Of a stretch of DNA of 28,504 nucleotides, positions 4,205 to 17,553 are shown piece after piece. Source of the stretch: a virus; the IMG/VR virus record IMGVR_UViG_3300031629_000052, positions 1 to 28,504 of that record. One strand, 5' to 3'. The number at the start of each line of letters is the position of its first letter. Position 1 is the first letter of the stretch. Below the pieces are notes generated by a model. The model did not search any database. It was not told the origin of the DNA and was given only the letters and a program-made list of their open reading frames with translations. The position numbers and the translations under genes were made by a program.

Positions 4205-6184
4205 TTACTTTCTGCCCATCATCTGCATTTGTGCAATAACTTCATTGGACTCTACATCTGCGGCTTTAATGAGGTTGCCCTCTTCTTTAATTTTAAGTTC
4301 AGCAATCTTAACAGCTTTCTCAAAGTCATCTACAGGAGTATTCTTAGACATGGCAGCGATACGTCTTGTCTCTTCCTCGAAAGGTAAGAGCTGAGTCTCA
4401 ACGTTATTCTGTTGTACTCTTGATTGAATCTCTGCTGCTTCTATCTGAAGTTTCTGTACTTGAGCTTGTGCTAGTTGTAGCTGAAGCATTAACTGTTGTT
4501 GTTGTGCTTGCTGCTGTTGTTGAGCTTCTTGTTGTTTCTCAGGAGTATCTGCATTAGCTGCTCTAATAGTAGCCAAGATAGATTCTCTGTTTGTAAGGTT
4601 CATAGACTCTACAATAGACTCTACTAACATTGGATACATTGGAGAATCCGCAGGCATAGTCTGTAGCAACTGTACTAGCTGTGTGACCTCATATTCTCTA
4701 GCAATAATACCTAAAGAGTTAGATGCAACAAATTTGTAGTCCTGTACTGGATAAGTCTCAGGGTCAAACTGCATGTACCTGTAAATTGCTTTATGGATAA
4801 ACGGTACTAGGAAGTTCTCTTGGAAGTTTAAGAGAGTTCTCTTATGCCGCTTGATAACAGCACCTAATGCCATTGAGATACCAGAAGCAGTTGCCTCTCC
4901 ACTCAACGCACCTTGGAAGCCTACAGTATCTACAGCACCTGTTGCTTGCTGTACCATGTTCTGTAGCTGTTGTCCTTGTGCAAAAGTAATCTGGTCCACT
5001 GCACCAAACTTAAATGGTTGTAGAATCTCTGAGGGATTACCGTTAGTAAGGAATGTCTTACCCGGTTTAATATCGAACTTAGCACCTCTAGGCATACGAG
5101 AAGCATCAATAGCCATCATAGGATGTACTGTAAGTGCTAGGGCATCAATACGCGCTCTAAGCTCTGTATCTAGTGCTTTCTGGCTGTTATAGCCCTTCTC
5201 ACAGACACCACGACCCCAGAACTTACTAGGTACTGTATCCCATTGGAATGCTACGATAGGTCTATCCTGCATCATAAACGGGTTAGCTTCTACTTTTAAG
5301 ATAGTTTCCCCGTTAGCAATAATAACAATAGCTTCTATATAAGAGTCATCGTTACTAACCTCATCAGGGAATAGGGATTCTAACTCACCCTCTTCTTCTT
5401 CATTCTCCATCTCAGCTTCAAATAAACTTTTAGGCACTAGTCCGTAGTACTTAGTAAGGCGTACCCTGTTGTCATCTTGGTAGCTTGTGTCCTGGTCTGG
5501 TTCTAGTTTGTCATCTGTAGGAGCTCTGTCAATCTCTACATCTCTGTAGATACCATTATCAATATCAATCTGTACTTGATGTGCAGGTACAAACATGTCT
5601 GTAGCACAGCCAAGTGCCTCTTCAATGCTTGATGCTACTGGGTCAATCAAGAAGTTCTGAGGAAGGATAGGTCTTATCTTAACGATAAACCTTTCTTTTT
5701 TATTTACACCTACAGCTTGCATTGCACCATCCATCACTGGCTGGCTAGCAGGTGTATACTCTATAACATCATCTAAGTAGACTTCACCAATGCCTGTACC
5801 ATAGACAGCACTGTTGATTAATACTTCGCTGATGGAGCTCCTAGCCTTAGCGAACTGCATGTCCTCTTCTAGTTGCTTCTTAACTAATTCAATGTCAATC
5901 TTTTCATTATCTTGGAAGTCATCGTGTAAATCAAACCACTTGCCCCGTCCAAAGGTCGCTTCTTCAACTTCTGCAACAGAAGACTCTACTGCTTGTTGTA
6001 AAGCTGGCGTAATAATACGAGAGCGTTCTGACTTTCTCTCTTGGTCTTCAGATGCCCAGATGCCTCTCCAGAGTCTATAATACTCTTCGTGGTCTAATCT
6101 ATAGTTAGATTCGTAGTGGTCTCTCCAAGTGTCACACTTCTCCATCACCCATTGATTTAATTCCAGACTATCTAGTTCTTTCAT
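4205..6184 (-). CDS. Portal protein (head-tail connector)
   Basis: A 659-aa protein of the size and sequence style of podovirus portal proteins. Visible blocks include MEKCDTWRDHYESNYRLDHE near the start, ALQQAVESSVAEVEEATFGR, NFLIDPVASSIEEA, PIVAFQWDTVPSKFWGRG and a wing/clip region. The last 130 residues are Gln-rich and helical (EAQQQQQAQQQQ, then LQLAQAQVQKLQIEAAE), a likely coiled-coil crown. Twelve copies form the ring through which DNA is packaged by the terminase encoded just upstream. The start has AAAGGAT 5-6 bases before ATG. Confidence 0.92.
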   Translation of the reverse strand: MKELDSLELNQWVMEKCDTWRDHYESNYRLDHEEYYRLWRGIWASEDQERKSERSRIITPALQQAVESSVAEVEEATFGRGKWFDLHDDFQDNEKIDIELVKKQLEEDMQFAKARSSISEVLINSAVYGTGIGEVYLDDVIEYTPASQPVMDGAMQAVGVNKKERFIVKIRPILPQNFLIDPVASSIEEALGCATDMFVPAHQVQIDIDNGIYRDVEIDRAPTDDKLEPDQDTSYQDDNRVRLTKYYGLVPKSLFEAEMENEEEEGELESLFPDEVSNDDSYIEAIVIIANGETILKVEANPFMMQDRPIVAFQWDTVPSKFWGRGVCEKGYNSQKALDTELRARIDALALTVHPMMAIDASRMPRGAKFDIKPGKTFLTNGNPSEILQPFKFGAVDQITFAQGQQLQNMVQQATGAVDTVGFQGALSGEATASGISMALGAVIKRHKRTLLNFQENFLVPFIHKAIYRYMQFDPETYPVQDYKFVASNSLGIIAREYEVTQLVQLLQTMPADSPMYPMLVESIVESMNLTNRESILATIRAANADTPEKQQEAQQQQQAQQQQLMLQLQLAQAQVQKLQIEAAEIQSRVQQNNVETQLLPFEEETRRIAAMSKNTPVDDFEKAVKIAELKIKEEGNLIKAADVESNEVIAQMQMMGRK

Positions 6185-6206
6185 TTGTATCCTTTTAAAC
6201 TATTTA

Positions 6207-7466
6207 TCAGTAACCTGCTGTGATATCCATTGGTTCGTAGTTGTCTTCTTCAAAGTCATACCCATAAGACACCAGAGCTAACTGGTCTATATAGGCTAAA
6301 GAGTCAATCAAGTCATCATGCACTAAAGGGTTAGGGAATTGAAACAGCTCATCTAAAAACTCAATGTTCCATTCCCCTTCCGCTAGCTTGATAGTCCCGT
6401 GTTCAAACTTACCCTGTAAGGCAGACACTATCCTATCAGTTTTCTTTCTGTTACCGTGAGTTAACTCTACTACTCTAAAGAACCTACCCTGCTTCTTCAT
6501 CATATCCGTAAGGGGTGACATCACTGCTTGCCTAGCAATACCCTTCTCTATACCTACAGAGATTGGCTGGTACTTAGCAACAGCACTGAATATCTTATTG
6601 ACAGTCTCATCAAAAGTCCACCTACCAAAAACAATATCTTCTACGTACCAACCCTCCTCATTTACTTTAACTATCGAGATGGCTGTGTTATCTAACCTTT
6701 TATGCTTTGTCTTTGCTTTACCTACTTCTTCAAAACCAGCCAAGTCAATGGCGATGTAGTACTCTCCAATATCAGGGGGCTCCTCCTCAAAGGCTACCCA
6801 CTCTTCCTTAAATATCTCACTACCCATAGCTTCAAAAGAAGCCATGAACTCTTGTCTAAACGCATAAGAAGACATAGAGCTTTTTGCTAGGTTAATCTCC
6901 TCTGGGTCTAGTAGAGGGTTGTCATACGAAGTAAAGTGCCAGCCCTCATACGTTACATCCTCTCCTAAGTCTGCATACTTATACAAGTCATAGAAGTGAT
7001 TTCTACCCATAGGAGTACCGATAAACAGTGCTTCTCCCTTCTGGTCGGCAAGGGCTGGTCTTAAAATCTGCTCCCAGACTGCAGGCTTCATATCTGCATA
7101 CTCATCCATCACTAGGAACTTCAAACTAACACCACGCATGGTCTCTGGTCTATCAGCTCCTTTTAGGGAAATAGTAGCACCATTGATTAACGTAATCTGT
7201 AAATTGTTAATATGACTGGTCTTTATAACAGGGTGAGCTAACTCTAATAGAGTCTGCCAAATAATATCCCTAGCCTGCCCTTGCGTAGGAGCAACGTAAA
7301 ATACATTACCCTTACCTGACTGTAGTGCATTAACGATAAGGAGCCAAGCAGCTAGTCTGGACTTACCAGTTCGTCTACCTGCGGCTACCACTTTAAATCT
7401 TGTCTTACTAGCCCATACCTCTTCTTGCCAAGGTAGGAGCTTAATGTTTAGGTCTGTGCTACTCAA
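6207..7466 (-). CDS. terL: Terminase large subunit (TTG start)
   Basis: A 419-aa packaging motor. The ATPase has Walker A AAGRRTGKS (residues 28-36), Walker B FLVMDEYAD (Asp121-Glu122) and the coupling motif IGTPMG (149-154). The RNase H-like nuclease shows Asp241 (YIAIDLAG), Glu307 (VGIEKG) and the Asp cluster HDDLIDSLAY (384-388). The start codon is TTG at 7464-7466, overlapping the TGA stop of the LysM gene (TTGA); no in-frame ATG exists before residue 110, after the Walker A. The gene is probably coupled to its upstream neighbour. The enzyme cuts concatemeric DNA and drives it through the portal. Confidence 0.95.
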   Translation of the reverse strand: MSSTDLNIKLLPWQEEVWASKTRFKVVAAGRRTGKSRLAAWLLIVNALQSGKGNVFYVAPTQGQARDIIWQTLLELAHPVIKTSHINNLQITLINGATISLKGADRPETMRGVSLKFLVMDEYADMKPAVWEQILRPALADQKGEALFIGTPMGRNHFYDLYKYADLGEDVTYEGWHFTSYDNPLLDPEEINLAKSSMSSYAFRQEFMASFEAMGSEIFKEEWVAFEEEPPDIGEYYIAIDLAGFEEVGKAKTKHKRLDNTAISIVKVNEEGWYVEDIVFGRWTFDETVNKIFSAVAKYQPISVGIEKGIARQAVMSPLTDMMKKQGRFFRVVELTHGNRKKTDRIVSALQGKFEHGTIKLAEGEWNIEFLDELFQFPNPLVHDDLIDSLAYIDQLALVSYGYDFEEDNYEPMDITAGY

Positions 7467-8434
7467 TTAGTTTTTGCTTTCCAGTACTTAATCCAATAGT
7501 CTGCTAGCTGTTTACCTTCTAAATCTTGTCCAGTGCCATTTAGGTTAGCCTTAATTTTTGCAGCTCTTGTTTCACTAATATTACCAGATAGAATTTCCTT
7601 AAATCCTTTAAGACCTTGTTGGTGTGCGCCATAAATATGAAAGGTATCTTTAGGTAAACTGCCCATACCCTTCATATTATCCTTAGTAAAGTTTACAAAC
7701 ATTTGGTCTTGTTTGTCAGGGGTCATCCAAGCTCTTAGGTCTTCCCCAGGCTTACCAGCATATCCTAAGTCTTTAGCATACGCAAACCCTGTAGACTTTG
7801 TCCCTCCAGTCATAAATTGGTACTTACCATAAGCTGAGGACTTTGGATTCTTTATATCGTACCCTACATTACCTGACTCTAGTTTAATGAGGGTTTTTAA
7901 TGGACCTTCGGGAAGTCCTATTTGCTTGGCTATAGAAGATAATGAAGACTCTTCTGGAGTTGGTGTTGTCTCTTCTGGAGTTACTACTGGAGTTACTACT
8001 GGAGTTACTACTGGAGTTACTACTGGAGTCTCTTCTGGCATTTGAAAAGATGAATCTATATCTTCCATACCCTCAAGAGAGGTTGGCATAGGGGAGTTAG
8101 TAAACGAAGAGAATACATCGTCATCCTCGATAGAGCTAGCTGATAAGTCTTCGTAGACATCACGAGCATCAGCACCAACTTCTCTAAAGAAACTTGTAGC
8201 CCAATCAGCAGCCCCCGATTTGAATTCATCCTCACCACTAAGTTGTTGTTCTTGACTTTCTTGTCCTTGTGGGACTATCGAATAGTCGTATAGGTTAAGG
8301 TTAATCTCTTGTCCTACCTGTAATTTAGTAGGGTCATCAATACCGTTAAAGGCAGCTACTTCCTGCCAGTTCTGTCCGAATAAATCAGATAGGGTATCAC
8401 CCTCTTTAATTCTGTATATGTTTTCTGCTGGCAT
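7463..8434 (-). CDS. LysM-containing lysozyme/transglycosylase-like protein
   Basis: A 323-aa two-domain protein. Residues 5-48 (YRIKEGDTLSDLFGQNWQEV ... LQVGQEINL) form a LysM peptidoglycan-binding module. Residues 136-162 are a repetitive Pro/Val/Thr/Glu linker (TPVVTPVVTPVV). Residues 165-320 look like a lysozyme-fold muramidase or lytic transglycosylase, with LIKLESGNVGYDI (Glu186 as likely acid catalyst) and SSAYGKYQFMTGG. It could be the endolysin or a virion-bound wall hydrolase; position among packaging genes and lack of a signal peptide do not decide. AGGATAGAGT precedes the ATG. Confidence 0.82.
   Translation of the reverse strand: MPAENIYRIKEGDTLSDLFGQNWQEVAAFNGIDDPTKLQVGQEINLNLYDYSIVPQGQESQEQQLSGEDEFKSGAADWATSFFREVGADARDVYEDLSASSIEDDDVFSSFTNSPMPTSLEGMEDIDSSFQMPEETPVVTPVVTPVVTPVVTPEETTPTPEESSLSSIAKQIGLPEGPLKTLIKLESGNVGYDIKNPKSSAYGKYQFMTGGTKSTGFAYAKDLGYAGKPGEDLRAWMTPDKQDQMFVNFTKDNMKGMGSLPKDTFHIYGAHQQGLKGFKEILSGNISETRAAKIKANLNGTGQDLEGKQLADYWIKYWKAKTN
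7977..8029 (-). repeat. 12-bp tandem repeat in the linker of the LysM protein
   Basis: About four copies of ggagttactact (plus strand) encode the TPVV repeats between the wall-binding and catalytic parts. The unit is a multiple of three, so copy-number change only alters linker length. Confidence 0.9.
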
Positions 8435-8442
8435 ACTCTATC

Positions 8443-8712
8443 CTACCACTTTACTTTATCAGACCAGTAAGCAGCAGACATTTTACCTTTAGCTATGTTC
8501 TTACCATGTCTAGCCTTAAAGCTTTTCTGTCTAGCTTTCTCAGATTTTGTAGTAGGGCTTGCACCAGCACCAGAAACTCCTTGTTGACCAAATCTAATCA
8601 ACTTAGTAGTCTCCCCTTCTTTTGCCAATACTGCGTGGGACTTCTTCCCATCTGGAGTTTTCTTAGGTTTGTTATAACCTGCAAAAGTCTCCCCTCTATA
8701 TTCTATAGTCAT
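8443..8712 (-). CDS. Conserved basic phage protein, 89 aa
   Basis: A small lysine-rich protein with blocks TPDGKKSHAVLAKEGE, KLIRFGQQGVSGAG and a C-terminus SFKARHGKNIAKGKMSAAYW. The RFGQQG and KARHGKNI...AAYW pattern recurs in many tailed phages, to my memory, where it is annotated only as hypothetical. Its ATG overlaps the stop of the small terminase gene (ATGA). High positive charge and its place in the packaging block suggest a nucleic-acid-binding or head role, which is inference. Confidence 0.75.
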   Translation of the reverse strand: MTIEYRGETFAGYNKPKKTPDGKKSHAVLAKEGETTKLIRFGQQGVSGAGASPTTKSEKARQKSFKARHGKNIAKGKMSAAYWSDKVKW

Positions 8713-9200
8713 TCATCAACCCCACTGTATTTAAAGGACTCAACATCTATTACCTGTTCTTCTTCTTCCTGTACTATTTCCATATTACCATTACTACTAC
8801 CACCTACACCGCTAATAGTAATATTAACAGAAGGTCTACCACCAGTACCTAAGACATCCTTCTCAAACAGTCCAACAGGTAATATCCTATCAGTGACTAT
8901 CTTCCAAGCAGCAGCCTGATGTTTGTGGTCATCATCTAGAGCAGCATTAAGTATTGTATCCAATACCTTCCTACTCTTAGGAGAAGCTAACATACGAGCT
9001 TTATACTCATTGATGACAGAGTTATCCCCCTTAGGTCTACCGACAATACCAGTACCTTTAGCTGCTTTTTTTAAATCAGCTTTAGGAGGTCTTCCTCTTT
9101 TTCTTTTAGCTTTATTCTTTTCTACGTGTAGTCTTGTAGCTTCCTCTTTAGTTACTGGAGGTGTAATGACATCACTGGAGTTATTGTTTTCTGTAACGAT
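8709..9200 (-). CDS. terS: Terminase small subunit (non-standard or uncertain start)
   Basis: The first ATG in frame (8991-8993) gives only 94 residues starting MLASPKSRKV. The same frame stays open up to 9272 and upstream of that ATG encodes KRKRGRPPKADLKKAAKG and GTGIVGRPKGDNSVINEYK. This is an AT-hook-like basic stretch followed by the usual lead-in of phage small terminases. No in-frame ATG, GTG or TTG exists there. An AGAGGT ribosome binding site lies 9 bases before an ATC codon (9198-9200), which I take as the best start; a single-base error in the assembly is the alternative. The protein recognises DNA and recruits TerL. Identity is inferred from motif and position just before the packaging genes. 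Confidence 0.65.
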   Translation of the reverse strand: MVTENNNSSDVITPPVTKEEATRLHVEKNKAKRKRGRPPKADLKKAAKGTGIVGRPKGDNSVINEYKARMLASPKSRKVLDTILNAALDDDHKHQAAAWKIVTDRILPVGLFEKDVLGTGGRPSVNITISGVGGSSNGNMEIVQEEEEQVIDVESFKYSGVDE

Positions 9201-9304: not shown

Positions 9305-9333
9305 ATTATACCATACCTTTATCCTTTTGTCAA
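9305..9333 (-). promoter_or_regulatory. Perfect consensus sigma70 promoter for the leftward (late) genes
   Basis: On the minus strand TTGACA (9328-9333) and TATAAT (9305-9310) are separated by exactly 17 bases. Both hexamers are perfect. Transcription would start near 9298, about 100 bases before the small terminase, and drive packaging and structural genes. No phage RNA polymerase gene is seen in the window, consistent with use of the host enzyme. Confidence 0.88.
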
Positions 9334-9362
9334 GCTTTATTTTTATTTAGTTTAATATTATC

Positions 9363-9414
9363 TGAATAACACGTAGTTGCTAGAGGTTTCCTATTAACAA
9401 CTATGTGGTATTCA
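9363..9414. repeat. Long imperfect inverted repeat after the pqqA-like gene
   Basis: Arms 9363-9379 and 9398-9414 pair over 17 positions with one mismatch and one G-T pair, around an 18-base loop that holds a small AGG/CCT pairing. It begins 6 bases after the stop of the 23-aa gene on the minus strand and ends 30 bases before the late promoter. There is no following U-run on either strand, so it is not a typical intrinsic terminator. An mRNA-stability hairpin or protein-binding site is possible. Confidence 0.7.
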
Positions 9415-9420
9415 AATCTC

Positions 9421-9492
9421 CTATTTATTCATTACATACATAGTAACTTCAAAACCAAATCTCATTTCTGTTGCTGATGGTGTTGTCCACAT
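9421..9492 (-). CDS. pqqA: PqqA-like peptide: precursor of the cofactor pyrroloquinoline quinone
   Basis: A 23-codon gene reading MWTTPSATEM then RFGFEVTMYVMNK. PqqA is the ribosomally made peptide whose Glu and Tyr side chains are crosslinked by the radical SAM enzyme PqqE and cut out to become PQQ, the cofactor of periplasmic alcohol and glucose dehydrogenases. The EVTMY block supplies Glu15 and Tyr19 at the required E-x3-Y spacing. Trp2, Pro5, Arg11, Gly13, Val16, Thr17 and Asn22 also match the 23-residue Klebsiella-type peptide as I recall it (10 of 23 identical, same length). GAGGAG lies 7 bases before ATG, and a promoter lies about 60 bases upstream. No pqqB-E is present, so the host would have to mature it. 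A stand-alone signalling use cannot be excluded. Confidence 0.88.
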   Translation of the reverse strand: MWTTPSATEMRFGFEVTMYVMNK

Positions 9493-9560
9493 GGTAATTC
9501 TCCTCTTTTATATATAATATACTGTTACGTTATCTCTTACCCTTGTTGATAAGAACAGTC

Positions 9561-9589
9561 ATTATAACATACACTAGGTACTATGGGAA
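9561..9589 (-). promoter_or_regulatory. Extended -10 promoter for the pqqA-like gene
   Basis: On the minus strand a perfect TATAAT (9561-9566) carries an upstream TGT (extended -10) and lies 17 bases from TTCCCA (9584-9589, 4 of 6 matches to the -35 consensus). Transcription would start near 9554, leaving a leader of about 60 bases before the PqqA-like ATG. Confidence 0.7.
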
Positions 9590-9683: not shown

Positions 9684-10067
9684 AAAGCTACTATTTTGTA
9701 TTTAGGTGGGTACTATATATACTGACTAGAAAATTTCCCCCCTCCCCCCCTAACTATATGGTGATGTAGCCTGTTATTCGGTGAGTTTCTTCGGTGCCTC
9801 TAGCAGTTTACATAGGGGTGAGGGTTGGGGTGGCTACCTCCATACACATATATACACACCATCCTATACTACTGCCCCAAGTACTTCCTCCACCACTTGA
9901 AGAAGTCCTCCCCATAATGTACTTATCGCCCTATGCTATCCTATAGGTGACGAGGAGTTCGTGGCTTGTACCCCCCTTAACGCAAGCCTACTTCTACGGA
10001 TACATACATAACTATGCATTCTACTTCAGTCTAACTAACTACATATATATAAATGTAAAGATAATGC

Positions 10068-10096
10068 TTGACATCCCGAATATAGGGGTTTATGGT
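10068..10096 (+). promoter_or_regulatory. Early rightward sigma70 promoter
   Basis: TTGACA (10068-10073, perfect) lies 17 bases before TATGGT (10091-10096, 4 of 6). Start near 10103, about 33 bases before the first early ATG. It is the natural start for the rightward early gene block. Confidence 0.7.
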
Positions 10097-10135
10097 TATA
10101 TCTCGTTACTTCACTTATATAAAGGATTACATATC

Positions 10136-10312
10136 ATGACTACTTATACAATCACATACGACACAGAGTTTGGCGAAGCACATTATGAAGGTGACGAAGG
10201 CCAACACTACCAAGCATTCATTGCCTCAGCCACAAAGGCTGGCATTAAGATGGGTTTGATTGAACAAGGCGATAGTGTACTTGATTACGACCACGAGGTA
10301 GAATCATTCTAA
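10136..10312 (+). CDS. Early hypothetical protein, 58 aa, acidic
   Basis: This is the first rightward gene. The ATG at 10136 is chosen because it has AAGGA upstream and lies after the predicted transcription start; a longer frame from 9947 would begin upstream of the promoter. The product (MTTYTITYDTEFGEAHYEGD...) is acidic, ends in YDHEVESF, and has no known motif or membrane segment. As the first early gene it may act on the host, for example by binding a host protein, which is inferred only from position. Confidence 0.68.
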   Translation: MTTYTITYDTEFGEAHYEGDEGQHYQAFIASATKAGIKMGLIEQGDSVLDYDHEVESF

Positions 10313-10324
10313 GTGTCAACTGAT

Positions 10325-10346
10325 AAGGCACTCTAACAAGTGTCTT
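10325..10346 (+). repeat. Intergenic hairpin 1 in the early region
   Basis: AAGGCACT and AGTGTCTT form an 8-bp stem (one G-T pair) around a 6-base loop, between the first and second early genes. No U-run follows, so an RNA processing or stability role is more likely than full termination. Confidence 0.5.
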
Positions 10347-10383
10347 GCTGGATTCACACAACAACACAACAAGGGAATACATT

Positions 10384-10551
10384 ATGACAATCGCACAACG
10401 TAAAAGACTTCTTCTAACACACCACGTCACATATAAGATGCAAGATAATTTGCTTATGGCGGTTTGTGTATCATTAGATTCTATCGGTATCAGAAGATTT
10501 GAGTGGACTAATGTTACTGATATTAATTTATATCACTGGTTGGGATATTAA
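10384..10551 (+). CDS. Early hypothetical protein, 55 aa
   Basis: Starts at ATG 10384 behind AAGGGA. A TTG-started longer frame from 10345 lies in the preceding hairpin and lacks a ribosome binding site. The product (MTIAQRKRLLLTHHVTYKMQ...) has a basic first third and an ending NLYHWLGY. No recognised family. Its place within a row of small early genes, each preceded by a hairpin, suggests a host-takeover role that cannot be specified. Confidence 0.62.
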   Translation: MTIAQRKRLLLTHHVTYKMQDNLLMAVCVSLDSIGIRRFEWTNVTDINLYHWLGY

Positions 10552-10557
10552 TCATCT

Positions 10558-10581
10558 GACTTTGTTGGGCTGATTAAGCCA
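10558..10581 (+). repeat. Early intergenic repeat, copy A
   Basis: A 24-base element beginning GACTTTGTTGGGCT and ending AAGCCA; GGCT and AGCC form a short stem. It matches the element at 10956-10979 in about 20 of 24 positions and lies in the same position before the next early gene. Confidence 0.6.
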
Positions 10582-10614
10582 CTACGATAAACTACAATAT
10601 AGGATTACATTATT

Positions 10615-10929
10615 ATGACTGAATTAAACGCACACCTTACACTTAACGACTTTCGCACCTTATGGGCTAACAGTAGTAGAAAAGACTCATTCAGCTACGA
10701 GGCTTTAGAGTTTATTTATGATTATTTAACTGAGTTTGGTTGTGACATAACAGACATTATAGCTATTGATTGTGAGATGGTTGAACAAAGCGCAAAAGAT
10801 ATTGCGATGGATTACAACATAGAAATTCCCGCTGGTGACGACCTAAGAGCCACGGTTATAGAACACTTAGAAGAACAGACAGTAATTGTCGGCATTAGTG
10901 ACAATACTATTACTTATTATTCTTTTTAG
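10615..10929 (+). CDS. Acidic early protein, 104 aa
   Basis: Strongly acidic (blocks ALEFIYDYLTEFGCDITDII, IDCEMVEQSAKDI, AGDDLRATVIEHLEEQT) with no membrane segment. It shares layout with the next gene: an aromatic/Ala/Leu helix, an acidic Tyr-rich turn, an isoleucine-rich strand, a middle helix and a final hydrophobic strand ending in Phe. The pair looks like diverged paralogues. Small proteins of this pattern (Tyr-Glu-rich, DIIAIDCE-type strand) occur in phage early regions; DNA mimicry is a possibility only. The ATG follows AGGATTACATTATT. Confidence 0.7.
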   Translation: MTELNAHLTLNDFRTLWANSSRKDSFSYEALEFIYDYLTEFGCDITDIIAIDCEMVEQSAKDIAMDYNIEIPAGDDLRATVIEHLEEQTVIVGISDNTITYYSF

Positions 10930-10939
10930 GTAGACTGAT

Positions 10940-10961
10940 AAAGCCTGTTTAAACGGGCTTT
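10940..10961 (+). repeat. Perfect palindromic hairpin before the 100-aa gene
   Basis: AAAGCC and GGCTTT flank T-GTTTAAAC-G, giving an 11-bp arm with one G-T pair and a GTTTAAAC centre. It starts 10 bases after the stop of the 104-aa gene and runs straight into the repeat at 10956-10979. It may act as an attenuator or RNA processing site. Confidence 0.6.
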
Positions 10962-10979
10962 GTGGGGCTATTTAAGCCA
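10956..10979 (+). repeat. Early intergenic repeat, copy B
   Basis: GGCTTTGTGGGGCT...AAGCCA is the second copy of the element at 10558-10581. The shared GGCT/AGCC stem is kept while loop bases differ, which suggests selection on the fold. Confidence 0.6.
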
Positions 10980-11009
10980 ATATACAATTTACAACACGGA
11001 GAATATATC

Positions 11010-11312
11010 ATGGCACTATACAAAGTAGTAAACGAATCAGAAGGTATGAGAATGTTATTATCAGATGAGTATGCTAATTGGACTTACGACCAAGCTCAAG
11101 CATTACTTGAATACTATGAGCAATACAGCGAGGACACGGAAGAAGACCTAGAGCTTGACACAACAGTCATCAGAATGGAGTGGGCAGGTTATGCCAGCAT
11201 TAAAGAAGCCCTTGAAGACCATGGTAGCCCAATCACTTGGGAGGGCTTACAAGAGCAGACAGGTACCATTGAAGGGCTTAATGATGGGTCTGTGTTAGTC
11301 CATGAATTCTAA
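11010..11312 (+). CDS. Acidic early protein, 100 aa, likely paralogue of the preceding gene
   Basis: Starts at ATG 11010 with CGGAG 8 bases upstream; a GTG-started frame from 10962 would run through the hairpin and is not favoured. The product has YDQAQALLEYYEQYSEDTEE, then EDLELDTTVIRMEWAGYAS, and ends GLNDGSVLVHEF. The Tyr/Glu-rich helix followed by a D-x-x-VI strand is a pattern I have seen in conserved phage and prophage hypothetical proteins. No enzyme motif. A DNA-mimic or inhibitor function is speculative. Confidence 0.72.
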   Translation: MALYKVVNESEGMRMLLSDEYANWTYDQAQALLEYYEQYSEDTEEDLELDTTVIRMEWAGYASIKEALEDHGSPITWEGLQEQTGTIEGLNDGSVLVHEF

Positions 11313-11332
11313 GCATATAAGGAGATATTGAA

Positions 11333-11518
11333 ATGACTGATAAATTTGATAAGCAAAAAGAGTACACAAAGGGATTTGTAGATGGGCATTCGGCTGGGTT
11401 TAGCCACTCTGAAGCTGAGTTAACCGCACTACGTTTTGAGAATTTTCACCTAAGACACTCACTAACTGTTGCTCAAAATAAGGTAGTACTAGAAACATTA
11501 AAGAAAGGTAATAAGTGA
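11333..11518 (+). CDS. Small helical hypothetical protein, 61 aa
   Basis: AAGGAGATATTGAA precedes the ATG, a strong ribosome binding site. The product is soluble and mixed-charge, with a C-terminal helix (ELTALRFENFHLRHSLTVAQ...) that could form a coiled coil. Its TGA overlaps the next ATG (TGATG), so it is coupled to the membrane protein that follows. Confidence 0.68.
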   Translation: MTDKFDKQKEYTKGFVDGHSAGFSHSEAELTALRFENFHLRHSLTVAQNKVVLETLKKGNK

Positions 11519-11670
11519 TGTTAGATACAATATTTATGATAAGTAACTTTATATTTATGATGATTGGCGCAATGGTGTGCATATTTATATTATTAGTTTG
11601 GTTGAATATCCTCAAGGATAATGATAAGATTAATAAAGAATATTTAGACAAGAAGAAAGCTAAGGGGTAA
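11518..11670 (+). CDS. Single-pass membrane protein, 50 aa
   Basis: A short frame with start ATG 11518, overlapping the preceding stop. Residues about 5-32 (IFMISNFIFMMIGAMVCIFI and onward) are a long hydrophobic span, followed by a charged tail with LKDNDKIN and EYLDKKK. It is clearly related to the 46-aa protein at 12223: both share FIF-x-x-IGA, a Cys, WL, LK, ND and IN at matching places. Holin-like or inner-membrane blocking roles are possible; nothing in the sequence decides. Confidence 0.68.
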   Translation: MLDTIFMISNFIFMMIGAMVCIFILLVWLNILKDNDKINKEYLDKKKAKG

Positions 11671-11677
11671 TATTATT

Positions 11678-11887
11678 ATGAATTTTGATAGTGTAAAGAA
11701 CTTGGTTTTAGAAGAGGGCTTGATGGAAACCTATTCCGATTTCTTAGATTCTTATACGCATTCCATCGCGGTTTATGCAGAAAATGCGGAAGGTGTGCCT
11801 TTAAGTGAATCTGAATTAGATATTTTAAATGATGAATACCATTACATTGTTGAAGTGTATGCACTAGACAGTGTTTTTGGATACTAA
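11678..11887 (+). CDS. Acidic hypothetical protein, 69 aa
   Basis: AAGGGG, at the end of the previous gene, serves as ribosome binding site before the ATG. The product (MNFDSVKNLVLEEGLMETYS...) is acidic and Tyr-rich, with SESELDILNDEYHYIVEVYA near the end. No membrane segment and no family recognised. It sits between small membrane and secreted proteins of the early region. Confidence 0.65.
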   Translation: MNFDSVKNLVLEEGLMETYSDFLDSYTHSIAVYAENAEGVPLSESELDILNDEYHYIVEVYALDSVFGY

Positions 11888-11899
11888 GGAGGGAATAAG

Positions 11900-12217
11900 A
11901 TGAATAAAACTATTGTAACAGTATTGTTACTATCGTCATTACCTTTGGGTGTTTGTGCTGGGGGATATAGCTGGGAGAACTCTCCTAACAATTGGGAGAA
12001 CTCTCCAAATAACTGGGAGAACTCTTCTAACAATTGGGAGAACTCACCTAACAATTGGGAGAACTCTCCAGGTAACTACTTAGATGACCGTACAATACGT
12101 GATTCTAATGGGGAGGCTAAGGGCTACGCTGTACCTAAAGCTGATGGTGGTATTAATTTTTATGATAACGATGGTAATCGTACAGGTTACCTACCAAGAA
12201 ACAGCAGAGGGAGGTAA
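11900..12217 (+). CDS. Secreted protein with WENSPNN heptad repeats
   Basis: A 105-aa protein with a signal peptide (MNKTIVTVLLLSSLPLGVCA, cleavage likely after Ala20). Five 7-residue repeats of the WENSPNN type cover about residues 25-59. A C-terminal part follows with GYAVPKADGGINFYDNDGNR and TGYLPR. Such N-S-P-N-N-W repeats are found in scattered bacterial and phage secreted proteins with no clear function. The Gly-Tyr/Asn-Phe-Tyr-Asp repeats at the end resemble short beta-hairpin units. Ribosome binding site GGAGG precedes ATG. A periplasmic or surface role, for example superinfection control, is inferred from export only. Confidence 0.75.
   Translation: MNKTIVTVLLLSSLPLGVCAGGYSWENSPNNWENSPNNWENSSNNWENSPNNWENSPGNYLDDRTIRDSNGEAKGYAVPKADGGINFYDNDGNRTGYLPRNSRGR
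11972..12076 (+). repeat. Five 21-bp tandem repeats encoding WENSPNN
   Basis: The unit tgggagaactctcctaacaa(t) occurs five times head to tail with changes mainly at third positions and in the last codons. In-frame length means copies may be gained or lost without a frameshift. Confidence 0.92.
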
Positions 12218-12222
12218 AGACA

Positions 12223-12363
12223 ATGTTAAACGTAACGCTTATAGTAGTAGATTTTATATTCGTATTAATTGGGGCTGGATTCTGTGTATTTATGTTAGCA
12301 CTCTGGTTAGACCTACTTAAACAGAATGATAGGATTAACGAAGCAGCAGAAGAGGAGAGGTAA
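12223..12363 (+). CDS. Single-pass membrane protein, 46 aa, paralogue of the 50-aa gene
   Basis: ATG at 12223 behind GGGAGG. Residues 3-30 (NVTLIVVDFIFVLIGAGFCV and onward) form a membrane span; the tail LKQNDRINEAAEEER is charged. The match to the 11518 protein (FIF, IGA, Cys, WL, LK-ND-IN) shows a duplication in which the 69-aa and secreted-repeat genes now lie between the copies. Function unknown. Confidence 0.7.
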   Translation: MLNVTLIVVDFIFVLIGAGFCVFMLALWLDLLKQNDRINEAAEEER

Positions 12364-12367
12364 CATT

Positions 12368-12466
12368 ATGGTGGATTTATATTTCTTTATGACATTAGCA
12401 GTTTCTTTTATAGTGTGGTTAGTGGTATTATATATTTTAATTTGGGGAGATGATGACAATGAATAA
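12368..12466 (+). CDS. Tiny membrane protein, 32 aa
   Basis: Residues 2-27 (VDLYFFMTLAVSFIVWLVVL and onward) are an uninterrupted hydrophobic span, ending in WGDDDNE. AGAGG lies at the end of the previous gene, 9 bases before ATG. Its stop overlaps the next start region (ATGAATAA). One more of the small membrane proteins of this cluster; a holin-like role cannot be tested by eye. Confidence 0.6.
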   Translation: MVDLYFFMTLAVSFIVWLVVLYILIWGDDDNE

Positions 12467-12605
12467 CTTAGAGATAGACTATACCGATGAAGATTACCAA
12501 GATGATATCAATCACCTAGCCTCTGCACAACTAGAAGAGTTTGAACAATGGTTAGACGAGGTAAATAAATATAACGATTTAATTGACTTTGGGGATTTAT
12601 CATGA
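12459..12605 (+). CDS. Acidic hypothetical protein, 48 aa
   Basis: ATG 12459 overlaps the end of the preceding gene; GGGGAGATG is the ribosome binding site. The product (MNNLEIDYTDEDYQDDINHL...) is very acidic and helical, with LEEFEQWLDEVNKYNDLIDF. Its TGA overlaps the next ATG (ATGA). Function unknown. Confidence 0.6.
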   Translation: MNNLEIDYTDEDYQDDINHLASAQLEEFEQWLDEVNKYNDLIDFGDLS

Positions 12606-12736
12606 TACAATCGAAGAATGTTACAGGGATTGAAAAGAACAAAATACAACAATATAAATTAATGTTATTAAGGATAGTTTATATTATATTAGTTTTAGGG
12701 GTTGTATTTGTCTTATCGTTTACATTACATACATAG
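12602..12736 (+). CDS. Small membrane protein, 44 aa
   Basis: ATG 12602 overlaps the previous stop. A basic N-terminal half (MIQSKNVTGIEKNKIQQYKL) is followed by a hydrophobic span (LRIVYIILVLGVVFVLSFTL). The layout fits a single-pass inner-membrane protein with the basic end in the cytoplasm. Function unknown. Confidence 0.6.
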   Translation: MIQSKNVTGIEKNKIQQYKLMLLRIVYIILVLGVVFVLSFTLHT

Positions 12737-12751
12737 AGGGAGTATAAAATT

Positions 12752-12946
12752 ATGATTAATTCAAGAGTTCTATCTACAGGTTTTAGGACAGTACAAATTG
12801 ATATTACTACGGAGCCAGACTTTAAAGCTATATTATCTGCCTTACAGAATTTTAAAGAGGTTATGGAGCAAGATGTATCATATACCTTTGCGGAACGTTG
12901 TGTTGTTTCAGACTTAGTAAGGGAGTTAGGGTATCAAAGTGCCTAG
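12752..12946 (+). CDS. Hypothetical protein, 64 aa
   Basis: GAGGGAG precedes the ATG by about 10 bases. The product (MINSRVLSTGFRTVQIDITT...) ends FAERCVVSDLVRELGYQSA. Its end overlaps the GTG start of the next gene by 8 bases. No family recognised. Position immediately before the replication genes suggests an accessory role, unproven. Confidence 0.65.
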   Translation: MINSRVLSTGFRTVQIDITTEPDFKAILSALQNFKEVMEQDVSYTFAERCVVSDLVRELGYQSA

Positions 12947-13178
12947 AGACTTTGATGATGACTTTGATGATTACTATGGGGTTACTATAGAGGAGGAAGA
13001 CAAACCATACACATCTGTACAAACTAACCAGTTTTCAGGCAGTGATATAATCCACCTTGTCATAGAGTCATTAGTGCAAGATGGTCACACGCATGAGGTA
13101 TCTTTAAACATAAATGGGGAGGTTGTTGATATGAATGAATTAGTTGTTAATATCAAAACTACTACGGTAATCCAGTGA
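12939..13178 (+). CDS. Acidic hypothetical protein, 79 aa (GTG start)
   Basis: Begins at GTG 12939. The N-terminus is a run of Asp residues (MPRDFDDDFDDYYGVTIEEE), followed by a small beta-rich part (IIHLVIESLVQDGHTHEVSL). The stop overlaps the GTG start of the primase-helicase (GTGA), so translation of the replication genes is coupled to it. The acidic head may bind a replication partner, which is only a guess. Confidence 0.65.
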   Translation: MPRDFDDDFDDYYGVTIEEEDKPYTSVQTNQFSGSDIIHLVIESLVQDGHTHEVSLNINGEVVDMNELVVNIKTTTVIQ

Positions 13179-14842
13179 ATAAAGGTACTCCACTACGTAA
13201 GACTTCTTGTTCTGAGTGTGGCAGTTCAGATGGTAAGCAGATATTCCAGCAAGATGATGGTAGTTTAGATGCGTTCTGTTTTGCTTGTGAGAGTGTTTTT
13301 AATGAGGTAAGTGAGGGGGTAGGTATGGTAGGAGGTAGAAAGTCTGTTACAGAGCCACCACGTGCTTCTGAGGGCTATATTACAGTAGAACAAATAGGTA
13401 AGTTACCTAGTGATGGCTTTAGAAGTATTAAAAAGCAGGTTGTAGACCTCTTTAATGTTAAGGTTGGTTACAGTAAAAGTGATGGTAGTACGATTGTTAA
13501 GCACTACTATCCTACTACTAAAGAGGGATTAGTAACAGGGTACGAGGAACGTACTGTACTAGATAAGGGTTTTCGTAGTGTAGGTGACAGAAAAGGGGAT
13601 GTAGAGTTATTTGGTACAGGCCTAGCTAAACGTAATGGTGGTAAGAAGTTATATATTACTGAGGGTGCTTGTGATGCTATGGCTTTATATCAAGCTATTG
13701 TTATTCATACAGACCCTAAGTATAAAACATTTAAACCTAGTGTCGTATCTCTAACACGAGGGGTTACCTCAGCAGTTAAGGATATTCTTAACAATAGGGC
13801 GTTCGTAGAGTCTTACAATGAAGTTATTTTAGTGTTAGATAATGATGATGCTGGTAAGAAGGCTGTTAAGGATGTTCTAAAGACCTTTCACACCTTCAAG
13901 GTGGCAGAGCTACCCCTTAAGGATGCTAACGCTATGCTGGAGGCTGGTAGAACTCAAGAGCTGTATCAAAAAGTCGTGTGGGATAGCCAACCAGTACGAC
14001 AAGGTGAGGTGTTGGATGTGTTAGACTTCATTGACAAAGCTTTAATTAAACCTGAGATGGGGATTAGTTTTCCGTGGCCTACAGTCACAAAGGCTTGCTT
14101 TGGTATCAGACCACATAACATCCACATAGTTGGAGCAGCTCCTAAGATTGGTAAGACAGACCACCAGCATCAGCTAGTAGAACACTTGATTTACAAAGAG
14201 AACGCTAAGGTTGGTATGTTTGACCTTGAGAATGCACCAGCTAAGACAGCTAAGAAGCTAGCAGGTAAGCATGATAGGGTTGATTATAGTAGGCCAGATA
14301 TTGAATATGATATAGAAGACTTACGCAATACGCTAACAGATATGAATGGTAAGGTAAGGTTCTATGACAGGTTAGCTAGCCGTGATTGGAATGATATACG
14401 TATAGCCATTGAAGAGATGCACTTGCTTGATGACATAAATATCTTTATCATTGACCCATTGACAGCATTGATTAGTAGGTATGCCAGTAGTGAAGCTAAT
14501 GATAAACTCAATGAGATTATGACGGACATGGCAGACTTGGTTATGAAGTATCCAATCACAATATTTTGTTACAGTCATGTTAACCCTAAGCCTAAGACCT
14601 CTACACCACATGAAGCAGGTGGTAAGGTACTAAGTTCAGAGTTTACAGGTAGTAGAGCGATGGAGAAGTGGGCACATTATGGTCATGGTATTAGTCGAGA
14701 CAGAACAGAGGATTGTGAACCAGCTCGTAAGAATATGAGTGAGTTCAGGATGCTATTTGATAGAGACTTTGGACAAGGGTACAGTTGTGATGTATACTTT
14801 GATGAGAGAACAATTACTTACTTAGAAGTGAAGGGGTACTAA
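13175..14842 (+). CDS. DNA primase-helicase (T7 gp4-like)
   Basis: A 555-aa fusion with GTG start. The zinc-binding domain has Cys12, Cys15, Cys35 and Cys38. The TOPRIM primase core has LYITEGACDAMA (Glu163) and VILVLDNDDAG (Asp222, Asp224). The RecA-like helicase has Walker A GAAPKIGKT (320-328) and Walker B IFIIDPLTAL (Asp427), followed by YSHVNPKP. It unwinds the replication fork and lays RNA primers for the family A polymerase encoded downstream. Length and domain order match T7 gp4 (566 aa). It is translationally coupled to the 79-aa gene before it. Confidence 0.95.
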   Translation: MNKGTPLRKTSCSECGSSDGKQIFQQDDGSLDAFCFACESVFNEVSEGVGMVGGRKSVTEPPRASEGYITVEQIGKLPSDGFRSIKKQVVDLFNVKVGYSKSDGSTIVKHYYPTTKEGLVTGYEERTVLDKGFRSVGDRKGDVELFGTGLAKRNGGKKLYITEGACDAMALYQAIVIHTDPKYKTFKPSVVSLTRGVTSAVKDILNNRAFVESYNEVILVLDNDDAGKKAVKDVLKTFHTFKVAELPLKDANAMLEAGRTQELYQKVVWDSQPVRQGEVLDVLDFIDKALIKPEMGISFPWPTVTKACFGIRPHNIHIVGAAPKIGKTDHQHQLVEHLIYKENAKVGMFDLENAPAKTAKKLAGKHDRVDYSRPDIEYDIEDLRNTLTDMNGKVRFYDRLASRDWNDIRIAIEEMHLLDDINIFIIDPLTALISRYASSEANDKLNEIMTDMADLVMKYPITIFCYSHVNPKPKTSTPHEAGGKVLSSEFTGSRAMEKWAHYGHGISRDRTEDCEPARKNMSEFRMLFDRDFGQGYSCDVYFDERTITYLEVKGY

Positions 14843-14843
14843 A

Positions 14844-15068
14844 ATGTTAGTGAATCAAGAGGAAAGACTATTAGACTATCTTAAAACCAACGGGAGTGTT
14901 AACCCATTGGATGCTTGGAAGGAGTTAGGAATCTATAGATTGAGTGCAGTTATCTTTCTACTACGTGAGAGGGGTTATAATATAGAGACAAAGAGGAATT
15001 CAATGCTAAACAAGTTTGAGGAGTTGTGTAACTTTGCAGAGTACGAGCTACAATTGGAGGCTTCATGA
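14844..15068 (+). CDS. Helix-turn-helix protein, 74 aa
   Basis: Residues 5-50 (ERLLDYLKTNGSVNPLDAWK, then ELGIYRLSAVIFLLRERGYN) form a winged-helix DNA-binding fold of the type found in many phage small regulators, with a recognition helix around IYRLSAVIFLL. Starts 1 base after the helicase stop; GAAGGGG lies before ATG. Its stop overlaps thyX (ATGA). It could regulate the replication genes or assist the replisome. Confidence 0.8.
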   Translation: MLVNQEERLLDYLKTNGSVNPLDAWKELGIYRLSAVIFLLRERGYNIETKRNSMLNKFEELCNFAEYELQLEAS

Positions 15069-15736
15069 ACGTAAAGGTAGTAGGTATCACAAAACCTTTG
15101 GTTGAGGGTATGGAGACAGCGGCAGAGTTAGTGAGTTACTGTGCAAGAGTGTCCAACCCTGATAATCAAATGAACTTTAAAACAAGTGGAGGGTTGTTAA
15201 AGTATTGTATTAAACATAAGCACTTCAGTATCTTTGAGATGGTTAATGTTGTGATGGAGGTTACTACCACTAGAGATATTGGTAGACAGATTCTAAGACA
15301 CCGTTCATTCTCCTTTCAAGAGTTTAGCCAACGCTATAGTCAAGCCAGCCCAGACCTAGAGTTCAGGGAGATGAGGCTACAAGACACTAAGAACAAGCAG
15401 AACAGCATCAAGGGTGAAGATAGTATGGATTTTATAGGTATGCAAAAAGATGTGTGGTCTGTTGCGATAACTGCATACTTATACAGCTTAAACAGTGGAG
15501 TAGCTAAGGAGCAAGCAAGGGCTTTACTGCCTGAGGGACTTACAAATACTTCTATGTACATGAATGGCTCACTACGCTCTTGGATTACATACTGTACAGT
15601 AAGATGTGGTATTGAAACACAAAAAGAACATAGAGATATAGCTAAGGAGTGTGCTATACTCTTATTTAAGGACTTCCCATTCCTAGAAGAAGTTATGGGT
15701 GAAGTACTGCAAGATAACTATTCAGCAGAGGATTGA
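15065..15736 (+). CDS. thyX: Flavin-dependent thymidylate synthase
   Basis: A 223-aa enzyme that makes dTMP from dUMP with FAD, NADPH and methylene-tetrahydrofolate. The ThyX signature RHRSFSFQEFSQR (residues 78-90) is complete. The second conserved block EQARALLPEGLTNTSMYMNG is also present. Together with the class II RNR it supplies DNA precursors during infection. ATG overlaps the preceding stop; the gene is close to the DNA polymerase, fitting a replication operon. Confidence 0.96.
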   Translation: MNVKVVGITKPLVEGMETAAELVSYCARVSNPDNQMNFKTSGGLLKYCIKHKHFSIFEMVNVVMEVTTTRDIGRQILRHRSFSFQEFSQRYSQASPDLEFREMRLQDTKNKQNSIKGEDSMDFIGMQKDVWSVAITAYLYSLNSGVAKEQARALLPEGLTNTSMYMNGSLRSWITYCTVRCGIETQKEHRDIAKECAILLFKDFPFLEEVMGEVLQDNYSAED

Positions 15737-15741
15737 GTTGT

Positions 15742-17553
15742 ATGGAATGTGTATTTGATATTGAGACAGATGGCCTAAACCCCACAAAGATACATTGTAT
15801 GGTGATAGATGGTGTAGCTATTACAGATTATCAAGAGATGAGAGACTGCCTAAACAAAGTGTCAACCTTAGTTGGTCACAATATCATACGATATGACATA
15901 CCTGTATTAGAAAGGTTACTTAATATAACTATCAAGGCTACACTAGTGGACACTCTAGCACTGTCTTGGTACTTATACCCAACTAGAACTAGACATGGGT
16001 TAGCACATTATGGGGAGGACTTCGGTATTCCTAAGCCTAATGTTGATGATTGGGAAAACCTACCACTAGAGGAGTATGTGAACCGATGTAAGGAAGATGT
16101 GAGGATAAATACCTTACTCTGGAAGTTACAGAAGGGTGACTTAGATGCACTATATGAGGGTAAATACAATGACTTAGTAGAATACCTAACCTTCAAGATG
16201 ACTTGTGCTAGGGGGCAAGAGGAGGAGAGGTGGAAGTTTAATGAGGTACAGGGGGAGGAGTTACTATCCTTGATGATAGAGAGACAAGACATTGCTAAAG
16301 ATACATTACATTCTGTCATGCCAGAAGTTCCTAAGTATACTAAGAAAGTTAGACCTAAAGAGCCCTTTAAGATGGATGGTACTTTAAGTGTAGTTGGGGT
16401 ACGTTGGAAGGAGTTAGCAGAAGAAAGGAATTTAGGGTTTGATTACCAAGGGGAAGTGCAAGTATTCCAGAAGAACTTACCACCTAATGCTAGTAGCTCT
16501 AAGCAGATTAAGGATTGGTTGTTCGCTTTAGGATGGGTTCCAGCTACTTTCAAATTTGTAGATGATAGACAGGTACCTCAGATTAAAAACAGTAGTGGTA
16601 TGTTATGTTCTTCTATTGAGAATATGATTAAAGACCACCCAGAGTTAGCTAGCCTATCAGACTTGGGGGTACTTGGACACCGTATAGCGATTGTCAAGGG
16701 GTTCTTAGAGTCAGCTAAGAAGGGTTATGTAGTGGCAGGGATACAAGGTCTAACAAACACCTTAAGATTTAAGCATAAGACTTGTGTTAATATCCCTAGC
16801 TTACGTAAACCTTATGGGGAGGAGATTAGAAGTTTACTAACAGTTAGAAAGGATACTAATGAATTAATTGGCAGTGACATGTGTAGTCTTGAGGATAGGA
16901 CTAAGCAACATTATATGTGGAGTCATGATGCAGAGTATGTAAAAGAGATGATGGTAGAGGGCTTTGACCCACACCTAGACATTGCAGTAGCAGCTAACAT
17001 GATGACACAAGAGCAAGCTAACCAATACAAAGAGGGAGGTAAGACTGAGGTACTAGATAAGATTAGATACAACGCTAAGACAGCTAACTATGCCTCTACC
17101 TATGGTGCTGGTGCAGCTACTATCGCAAGGCAAGCAGGTATGAGTGAGAAGGAGGCTAGGAAATTACACAAAGCTTATTGGGAACGTAATTGGAGTGTTA
17201 AGGCTATTGCAGAGGAGAGTATAGTAAAGAGTATTAAGGGTAAGATGTGGTTGTATAACCCAGTGAGTAAGTTTTGGTACTTCTTAAAGGCTGATAAAGA
17301 TAAGTTCAGCACCCTTAATCAAGGGACAGGTACATTCTTATTTGATATGTGGGTTAAGGAACTAAAGAAAGGTGGTGTTAGAATACTAGGGCAGTTCCAC
17401 GATGAGGTCATTGCTGAGGTTAAGCAAGGACAACAAGAGAAGGTGAAAGAATACTTTAAGCTAGCTGTACAGGAAGTTAATAATAAGTTCAGCTTGAACA
17501 GAGTCTTGGATGTAGATGTACAGTTTGGTAAGAATTATGCAAGTATACATTAG
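15742..17553 (+). CDS. DNA polymerase, family A (T7-type)
   Basis: A 603-aa polymerase with 3'-5' exonuclease. Exo I is VFDIETDG (Asp6, Glu8), exo II HNIIRYD (Asn47, Asp52), exo III in NRCKEDV. Polymerase motif A is GSDMCSLEDR, motif B RYNAKTANYASTYGAG, and motif C FHDEV. The residue equal to E. coli Phe762 is Tyr, as in T7, a trait linked to fast lytic phages. I use ATG 15742, 10 bases after AGAGG. The TTG at 15733, overlapping the thyX stop, would give 606 aa but sits too close to that site. It is about 100 residues shorter than T7 polymerase. Confidence 0.95.
   Translation: MECVFDIETDGLNPTKIHCMVIDGVAITDYQEMRDCLNKVSTLVGHNIIRYDIPVLERLLNITIKATLVDTLALSWYLYPTRTRHGLAHYGEDFGIPKPNVDDWENLPLEEYVNRCKEDVRINTLLWKLQKGDLDALYEGKYNDLVEYLTFKMTCARGQEEERWKFNEVQGEELLSLMIERQDIAKDTLHSVMPEVPKYTKKVRPKEPFKMDGTLSVVGVRWKELAEERNLGFDYQGEVQVFQKNLPPNASSSKQIKDWLFALGWVPATFKFVDDRQVPQIKNSSGMLCSSIENMIKDHPELASLSDLGVLGHRIAIVKGFLESAKKGYVVAGIQGLTNTLRFKHKTCVNIPSLRKPYGEEIRSLLTVRKDTNELIGSDMCSLEDRTKQHYMWSHDAEYVKEMMVEGFDPHLDIAVAANMMTQEQANQYKEGGKTEVLDKIRYNAKTANYASTYGAGAATIARQAGMSEKEARKLHKAYWERNWSVKAIAEESIVKSIKGKMWLYNPVSKFWYFLKADKDKFSTLNQGTGTFLFDMWVKELKKGGVRILGQFHDEVIAEVKQGQQEKVKEYFKLAVQEVNNKFSLNRVLDVDVQFGKNYASIH

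Follow-up and report, generated by a model that had tools for sequence, protein, structure and literature searches.

A stand-alone pqqA gene in phages of methylotrophic bacteria and its probable role as a source of PQQ precursor

A 28,504-nucleotide stretch of viral DNA (IMG/VR record IMGVR_UViG_3300031629_000052, referred to here as the window) was found to carry a real pqqA gene on its minus strand. PqqA is the peptide that bacteria process into the redox cofactor PQQ. We proposed that phage pqqA is probably an auxiliary metabolic gene, which would supply the substrate of PQQ synthesis and sustain the PQQ-dependent methanol dehydrogenase of the host. It also seemed reasonably likely that pqqA, alone of the whole pathway, has been acquired repeatedly by phages of C1-oxidizing bacteria as a whole, among them 35-kb podoviruses, T4-like phages and a contig of 356 kb.

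Identification of the pqqA gene

The gene and its ribosome-binding site were located as follows.

9421..9492, minus strand: pqqA coding sequence, MWTTPSATEMRFGFEVTMYVMNK, 23 codons and the stop codon TAG
9500..9505, minus strand: ribosome-binding site GAGGAG, 7 nucleotides upstream of the ATG

A search of the window with the Pfam PqqA profile (PF08042) gave a match of 39.1 bits (E 4e-11) in which all 19 positions were covered, and hmmscan of the peptide MWTTPSATEMRFGFEVTMYVMNK scored 41.3 bits over positions 1-19 of 19, the curated cut-off being 21.1 bits. In known PqqA, PqqE links Glu15 to Tyr19. Both were present in the 23-residue peptide, with three residues between them, as fits the Glu/Tyr pattern of a family of 22-29 amino acids. 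The assignment to PqqA made in the first-pass annotation, which had been based on the letters of the window, was thereby confirmed, and searches of other phage DNA revealed a recurring gene. No PHROGs family matched the peptide.

A chance reading frame was ruled out by the profile match, by the constraint seen in phage copies and by the absence of the PqqA core from all 150 randomized versions of the window (first-order Markov). The earlier view of the frame as selected, with a proper ribosome-binding site, was therefore upheld. Likewise, tblastn detected no pqqB, C, D or E in the window, as had been remarked before. The usual pqqBCDE neighbourhood, which is common but not required for PqqA, was thus lacking in the window; such adjacency is not a defining feature of PqqA, because host pqqA copies also often stand apart. 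The peptide would be expected to act as a substrate of PqqD and PqqE and to provide the atoms of PQQ.

Copies of pqqA in the putative hosts

The marine methylotroph HTCC2181 has a PqqA copy (L093) identical to the window peptide, and the host of the window phage is probably a member of the Methylophilaceae, as judged from the peptide only. The pqqBCDE genes of HTCC2181 (L501:3953-7041) had no adjacent pqqA; three copies were located elsewhere, two of them in tandem. Delivery of PqqA from a separate locus is therefore normal in this bacterium, and a phage copy fits such an arrangement. A host homologue and the rest of the pathway, both expected for an auxiliary metabolic gene, were found in HTCC2181 as the identical PqqA and pqqBCDE. 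Between 1 and 12 PqqA copies, mostly away from pqqBCDE, were counted in each of the Methylophilaceae genomes, and 3-12 pqqA genes together with one pqqBCDE set have been described for this family (PMC4109929). In Hyphomicrobium a separate pqqA copy was expressed alongside the operon copy, and in work cited by the same authors purified PqqA yielded PQQ with a Gluconobacter cell extract (PMC9851590).

Organization of the window and expression signals

The window was recognized as true phage DNA by genes for a terminase, a portal, a capsid, a collagen-like tail fibre, a primase/helicase and a family A DNA polymerase. It further encoded a LysM/transglycosylase-like protein, ThyX, an exonuclease, a metallophosphoesterase and a ribonucleotide reductase. 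The DNA polymerase was closest to those of PA11/GP100-like Pseudomonas phages and marine podoviruses, at about 50% identity, and no close public phage was found for the window at the DNA level. The record is a 28.5-kb fragment. A 1190-aa frame (23931-27503, minus strand) between the ribonucleotide reductase gene and the contig end matched no PHROG and probably encodes a large virion protein.

The following features were placed around pqqA.

9561..9589, minus strand: probable promoter TTCCCA-17-TATAAT with extended -10 TG, 10/12 matches
9360..9417, minus strand: hairpin directly 3' of the pqqA stop codon, -22.6 kcal/mol
9305..9333, minus strand: perfect sigma-70-type promoter TTGACA-17-TATAAT, 12/12 matches, downstream of pqqA
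4205..8993, minus strand: downstream phage genes (94-aa and 89-aa ORFs, LysM/transglycosylase-like protein, TerL, portal)
within 4205..8993, minus strand: 89-aa ORF downstream of pqqA, phrog_7595
6207-7466, minus strand: terminase large subunit
4205-6184, minus strand: portal
9947..17553, plus strand: divergent early/replication genes (small ORFs, primase/helicase, ThyX, family A DNA polymerase)

The extended -10 promoter claimed in the first-pass annotation does exist as a site, but its function is plausible and short of proven, because promoter-like sites in the region (7) were not enriched over shuffled sequences (5.3 +/- 2.2). The hairpin was also found as described, but a U-run was absent after it; it is possibly the 3' end or a processing site of the pqqA transcript. 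The perfect promoter beyond it likely drives the structural operon. With a separate promoter placed after it, pqqA looks like its own one-gene transcription unit ahead of the leftward structural operon, in a divergent region facing the early genes. A GGGGGGGAGGGGGG tract was observed on the minus strand at 9737-9750, upstream of pqqA and in AT-rich surroundings.

The strong hairpin 3' of pqqA could also indicate that the conserved unit acts as RNA or as an element placed ahead of the operon that follows, the peptide being incidental. However, the region of pqqA and the hairpin had no Rfam match, and between unrelated phages the conserved intergenic part consisted of only the ORF and about 12 nucleotides including the ribosome-binding site, the hairpin sequence not being conserved. 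Conservation so confined favours the translated peptide, and a conserved RNA element was therefore rejected as having a next to negligible probability.

Distribution of pqqA in public phage records

The peptide was compared by tblastn with 50,697 phage records. Matches were obtained in nine Methylophilales phages (P19250A, Venkman, MEP301, MEP401, MEP402 and four Melnitz isolates), one spring-water podovirus and two Acinetobacter records. The same twelve records were recovered with a PqqA query of the Pseudomonas/Acinetobacter type, and a query of the Methylobacterium type gave no match to the phage records. The nine Methylophilales phages span siphovirus- and podovirus-type phages, Zobellviridae and T4-like phages (Kyanoviridae), and the surroundings of the gene differ between these groups. 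The gene was present in all Methylophilales phage isolates whose records were found, a count that leaves out the OM43 Pelagivirus isolates MEP431-434 listed in the taxonomy.

Both Acinetobacter records were judged to be bacterial. The one that was opened, Acinetobacter 'phage' MD-2021a (L008, CAKLQF020000010.1), held a bacterial pqqABCDE operon together with ppk and fur and was set aside as host DNA.

Distribution and sequence constraint in IMG/VR

Scans of IMG/VR located at least 588 confirmed pqqA places with the phage peptides and at least 551 with a general PqqA set. No homologues of pqqB, C, D or E were detected in the examined flanks of the best 160 of these places. Additionally, no PqqD above the cut-off was found in 39 whole records, in a search that detected the host control. 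When sorted by gene content, the 166 assembled phage copies formed 20 groups besides the window, and their neighbours included T4-like DNA polymerases, baseplate and head proteins, portals and tail fibres.

Bacterial contamination was considered and dismissed, as the ORFs that the pqqA loci had in common with host loci were nearly all pqqA itself or antisense to it. One locus (L034) was dropped for its bacterial-looking flanks. A contig placed in a bacterial bin (L098) had 21 ORFs in common with phage P19250A and is therefore a misbinned phage. A contig of jumbo-phage size (L377, 356,312 bases) encoded the PqqA peptide MWTKPTAQEMRFGFEITMYVMNR, with a DnaB-like helicase and a carbamoyltransferase as neighbours.

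Residues W2, P5, R11, G13, F14, E15, T17 and Y19 were invariant across the 166 phage copies, although this apparent conservation is inflated because the IMG/VR loci were ranked and chosen by peptide similarity. The check on Glu15 and Tyr19 asked for in the first-pass annotation thus came out in favour of the gene, as did a dN/dS of about 0.03 in one group picked by peptide. The same annotation had suggested a decoy or signal directed at PqqD/PqqE. In such a case the phage peptide would occupy these proteins, lowering PQQ synthesis or blocking another phage, and a gene standing alone without maturation enzymes is compatible with this. The suggestion found no support: some decoy lineages would be expected to change their reactive residues, yet Glu15, Tyr19 and the flanking core never varied, and peptides identical to those of the host would undergo maturation rather than block it. 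A decoy or inhibitor was consequently regarded as most unlikely.

A ribosome-binding site preceded 159 of the 166 copies (8 expected from shuffles), and terminator-like hairpins lay downstream of 52 of 165 copies (1 in shuffled sequences). These hairpins, together with the separate perfect promoter of the window, indicate that phage pqqA often forms its own transcription unit. This arrangement, and the close match of phage peptides to host sequence, would also be expected if infection shut down or degraded host transcripts, the short-lived pool of host PqqA collapsed and the phage copy merely restored the precursor. Sequence cannot tell such a replacement from a boost of supply; we regarded replacement alone as rather unlikely.

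Retention and loss among related phages

Relatives of Venkman were collected by the exonuclease gene adjoining pqqA, which avoids selection by the peptide. The gene occupied the same slot in 26/26 relatives of at least 92% identity with enough flank, in one of four at 79-80% and in all four at 62-68%, and was found in none of the 43 relatives at or below 53% identity, some of which had short flanks. In two loci (L442, L443) another small frame occupied the slot. It follows from this sampling that pqqA is stable in close relatives and is gained or lost on a longer time scale.

In the case of the window, pqqA was absent from TerL relatives near 75% identity (0/35 loci with flank, 0/45 records), and the contigs of two 91% relatives stop short of the pqqA site. 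Loss in close relatives had been named in the first-pass annotation as an observation that would speak against the gene; it was seen among the roughly 75% TerL relatives of the window and not among the close relatives of Venkman. This mixed result fits host matching. In another related phage (L328:5257-5328, plus strand), a different 23-residue PqqA was observed between a homologue of the 89-aa gene of the window and a tail-fibre gene, inside the structural operon, which suggests a separate uptake of pqqA in a phage with another host.

Phage pqqA was concluded to be under purifying selection, with the Venkman set sampled by exonuclease and the dN/dS set by peptide. It was also considered that a small host gene had been repeatedly acquired and carried without selection. 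Capture would be easy because the hosts hold many dispersed copies, the nucleotide similarity to host copies spans the ORF and the ribosome-binding site, and pqqA was lost or swapped in some relatives, as in the two loci with another frame. Nevertheless, one and the same phage peptide was encoded by 35 different nucleotide sequences, pqqA occurred in about 20 gene-content backgrounds and every one of the close Venkman relatives had kept it, so an unselected passenger was held to be highly unlikely.

A contig with pqqA and pmoC

Methane oxidation yields methanol, and methanol dehydrogenase requires PQQ. In a 39-kb IMG/VR contig (G355; L342, L499-L500), pqqA was located about 2 kb from pmoC.

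L499:3142-3210, minus strand: pqqA of G355, 23-residue PqqA
L499:5319-6041, minus strand: pmoC of G355, PF04896, E 2e-124

The contig also carried a CbbQ-type ATPase gene and phage-type RNA ligase, HNH and endonuclease VII-like genes. It is likely a methanotroph phage with two genes of C1 oxidation. As a gene of methane oxidation, pmoC is already known from phages (PMC7674155).

Proposed role of phage PqqA

We proposed that the infecting phage would transcribe the one-gene unit and make PqqA, whose Glu15 and Tyr19 would be cross-linked by PqqD and PqqE of the host, and that host PqqB, PqqC and a protease would complete PQQ. Since each PQQ consumes one PqqA, the demand for the peptide scales directly with output. 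The extra peptide would keep or raise the supply of PQQ to the PQQ-dependent methanol dehydrogenase (XoxF/MxaF), and this enzyme would in turn keep a methylotrophic host supplied with energy and formaldehyde, from which the phage would gain at a cost of 72 bases.

The feeding of precursor into the host pathway, proposed in the first-pass annotation, appeared well supported at the sequence level by the recurrence of the gene, the PQQ-dependent hosts, the retained catalytic residues and the contig with pmoC. Its beneficiary, given there as periplasmic quinoprotein dehydrogenases, was corrected to the likely one, methylotroph methanol dehydrogenase, in hosts that already hold several pqqA copies. 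PqqA may not be limiting, because of these host copies and because pqqA is dispensable for PQQ synthesis in M. extorquens AM1 according to a title cited in PMC2294125. The absence of the gene from the TerL relatives of the window and of any methanol dehydrogenase match from 39 long IMG/VR contigs with pqqA (0/39) was also counted against an auxiliary role.

Comparison with known systems

Coutinho et al. (2020) reported PqqA beside methanol dehydrogenase in the Lake Baikal virus VP_266 (PMC7678222), and a 2026 paper listed pqqA among viral genes of reservoir sediments (PMC13188868). Phage pqqA as such is therefore already known, and the statement of the first-pass annotation that no established example existed does not hold. 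Judged by the open-licence PMC literature, what seems new is pqqA on its own, recurring across many phage lineages, in every Methylophilales phage isolate with a record found and in a contig with pmoC. The open-licence papers examined on these isolates made no mention of phage pqqA.

VP_266 (PMC7678222), compared here by its description, resembles the present phages in carrying PqqA, in its assignment to methylotrophs and in the proposed aid to methanol oxidation, but it encodes methanol dehydrogenase as well, for which the 39 long pqqA contigs gave no match. With the PqqA of Methylophilaceae (PF08042; HTCC2181 and relatives), the phage peptides share the 23 residues, the core and the reactive residues, and are identical to the peptide of some hosts, in which pqqA is also present as dispersed copies away from pqqBCDE; the phage-borne copies differ in lying between phage genes and in having promoters, hairpins and neighbours specific to the phage. 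Cyanophage psbA is a phage copy of a host gene with a fast-turnover product that limits energy supply in infection. Phage pqqA would be similar in these respects, whereas psbA encodes a photosystem protein and PqqA is a cofactor precursor. Phage pmoC (Chen et al. 2020, PMC7674155) also contributes to the initial steps of C1 oxidation and occurs together with pqqA in G355, but it encodes an enzyme subunit, whereas PqqA is a consumed substrate; the text of that paper has no mention of PQQ.

OM43 bacteria and their methylotrophic relatives play an important part in the use of methanol in coastal water and lakes, and for this reason a precursor gene in the phages common among them would link infection to C1 carbon flux. 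The idea is directly testable, because cultured pairs exist: Venkman and Melnitz on H5P1, MEP301, MEP401/402 and P19250A. Phage metabolic genes usually encode enzymes or their subunits. Here the phage would bring a ribosomally made substrate that host enzymes convert into a redox cofactor.

Annotation of phage pqqA

If the acquisition of pqqA by phages of C1-oxidizing bacteria is as general as proposed, PqqA would be, among the metabolic genes of phages, one of the smallest and one of the most widespread, overlooked because gene callers skip frames of 23 codons. The gene exemplifies a class that is lost to annotation. None of the phage records with true matches had a pqqA annotation, and in those examined the gene either lacked an annotation or was covered by a hypothetical protein called on the opposite strand. 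Such proteins were QZI94433.1 and UOF77531.1 in Melnitz and ctXG6705 (L005:5961-6056 and L006:2067-2195, both minus strand), and both calls are probably spurious.
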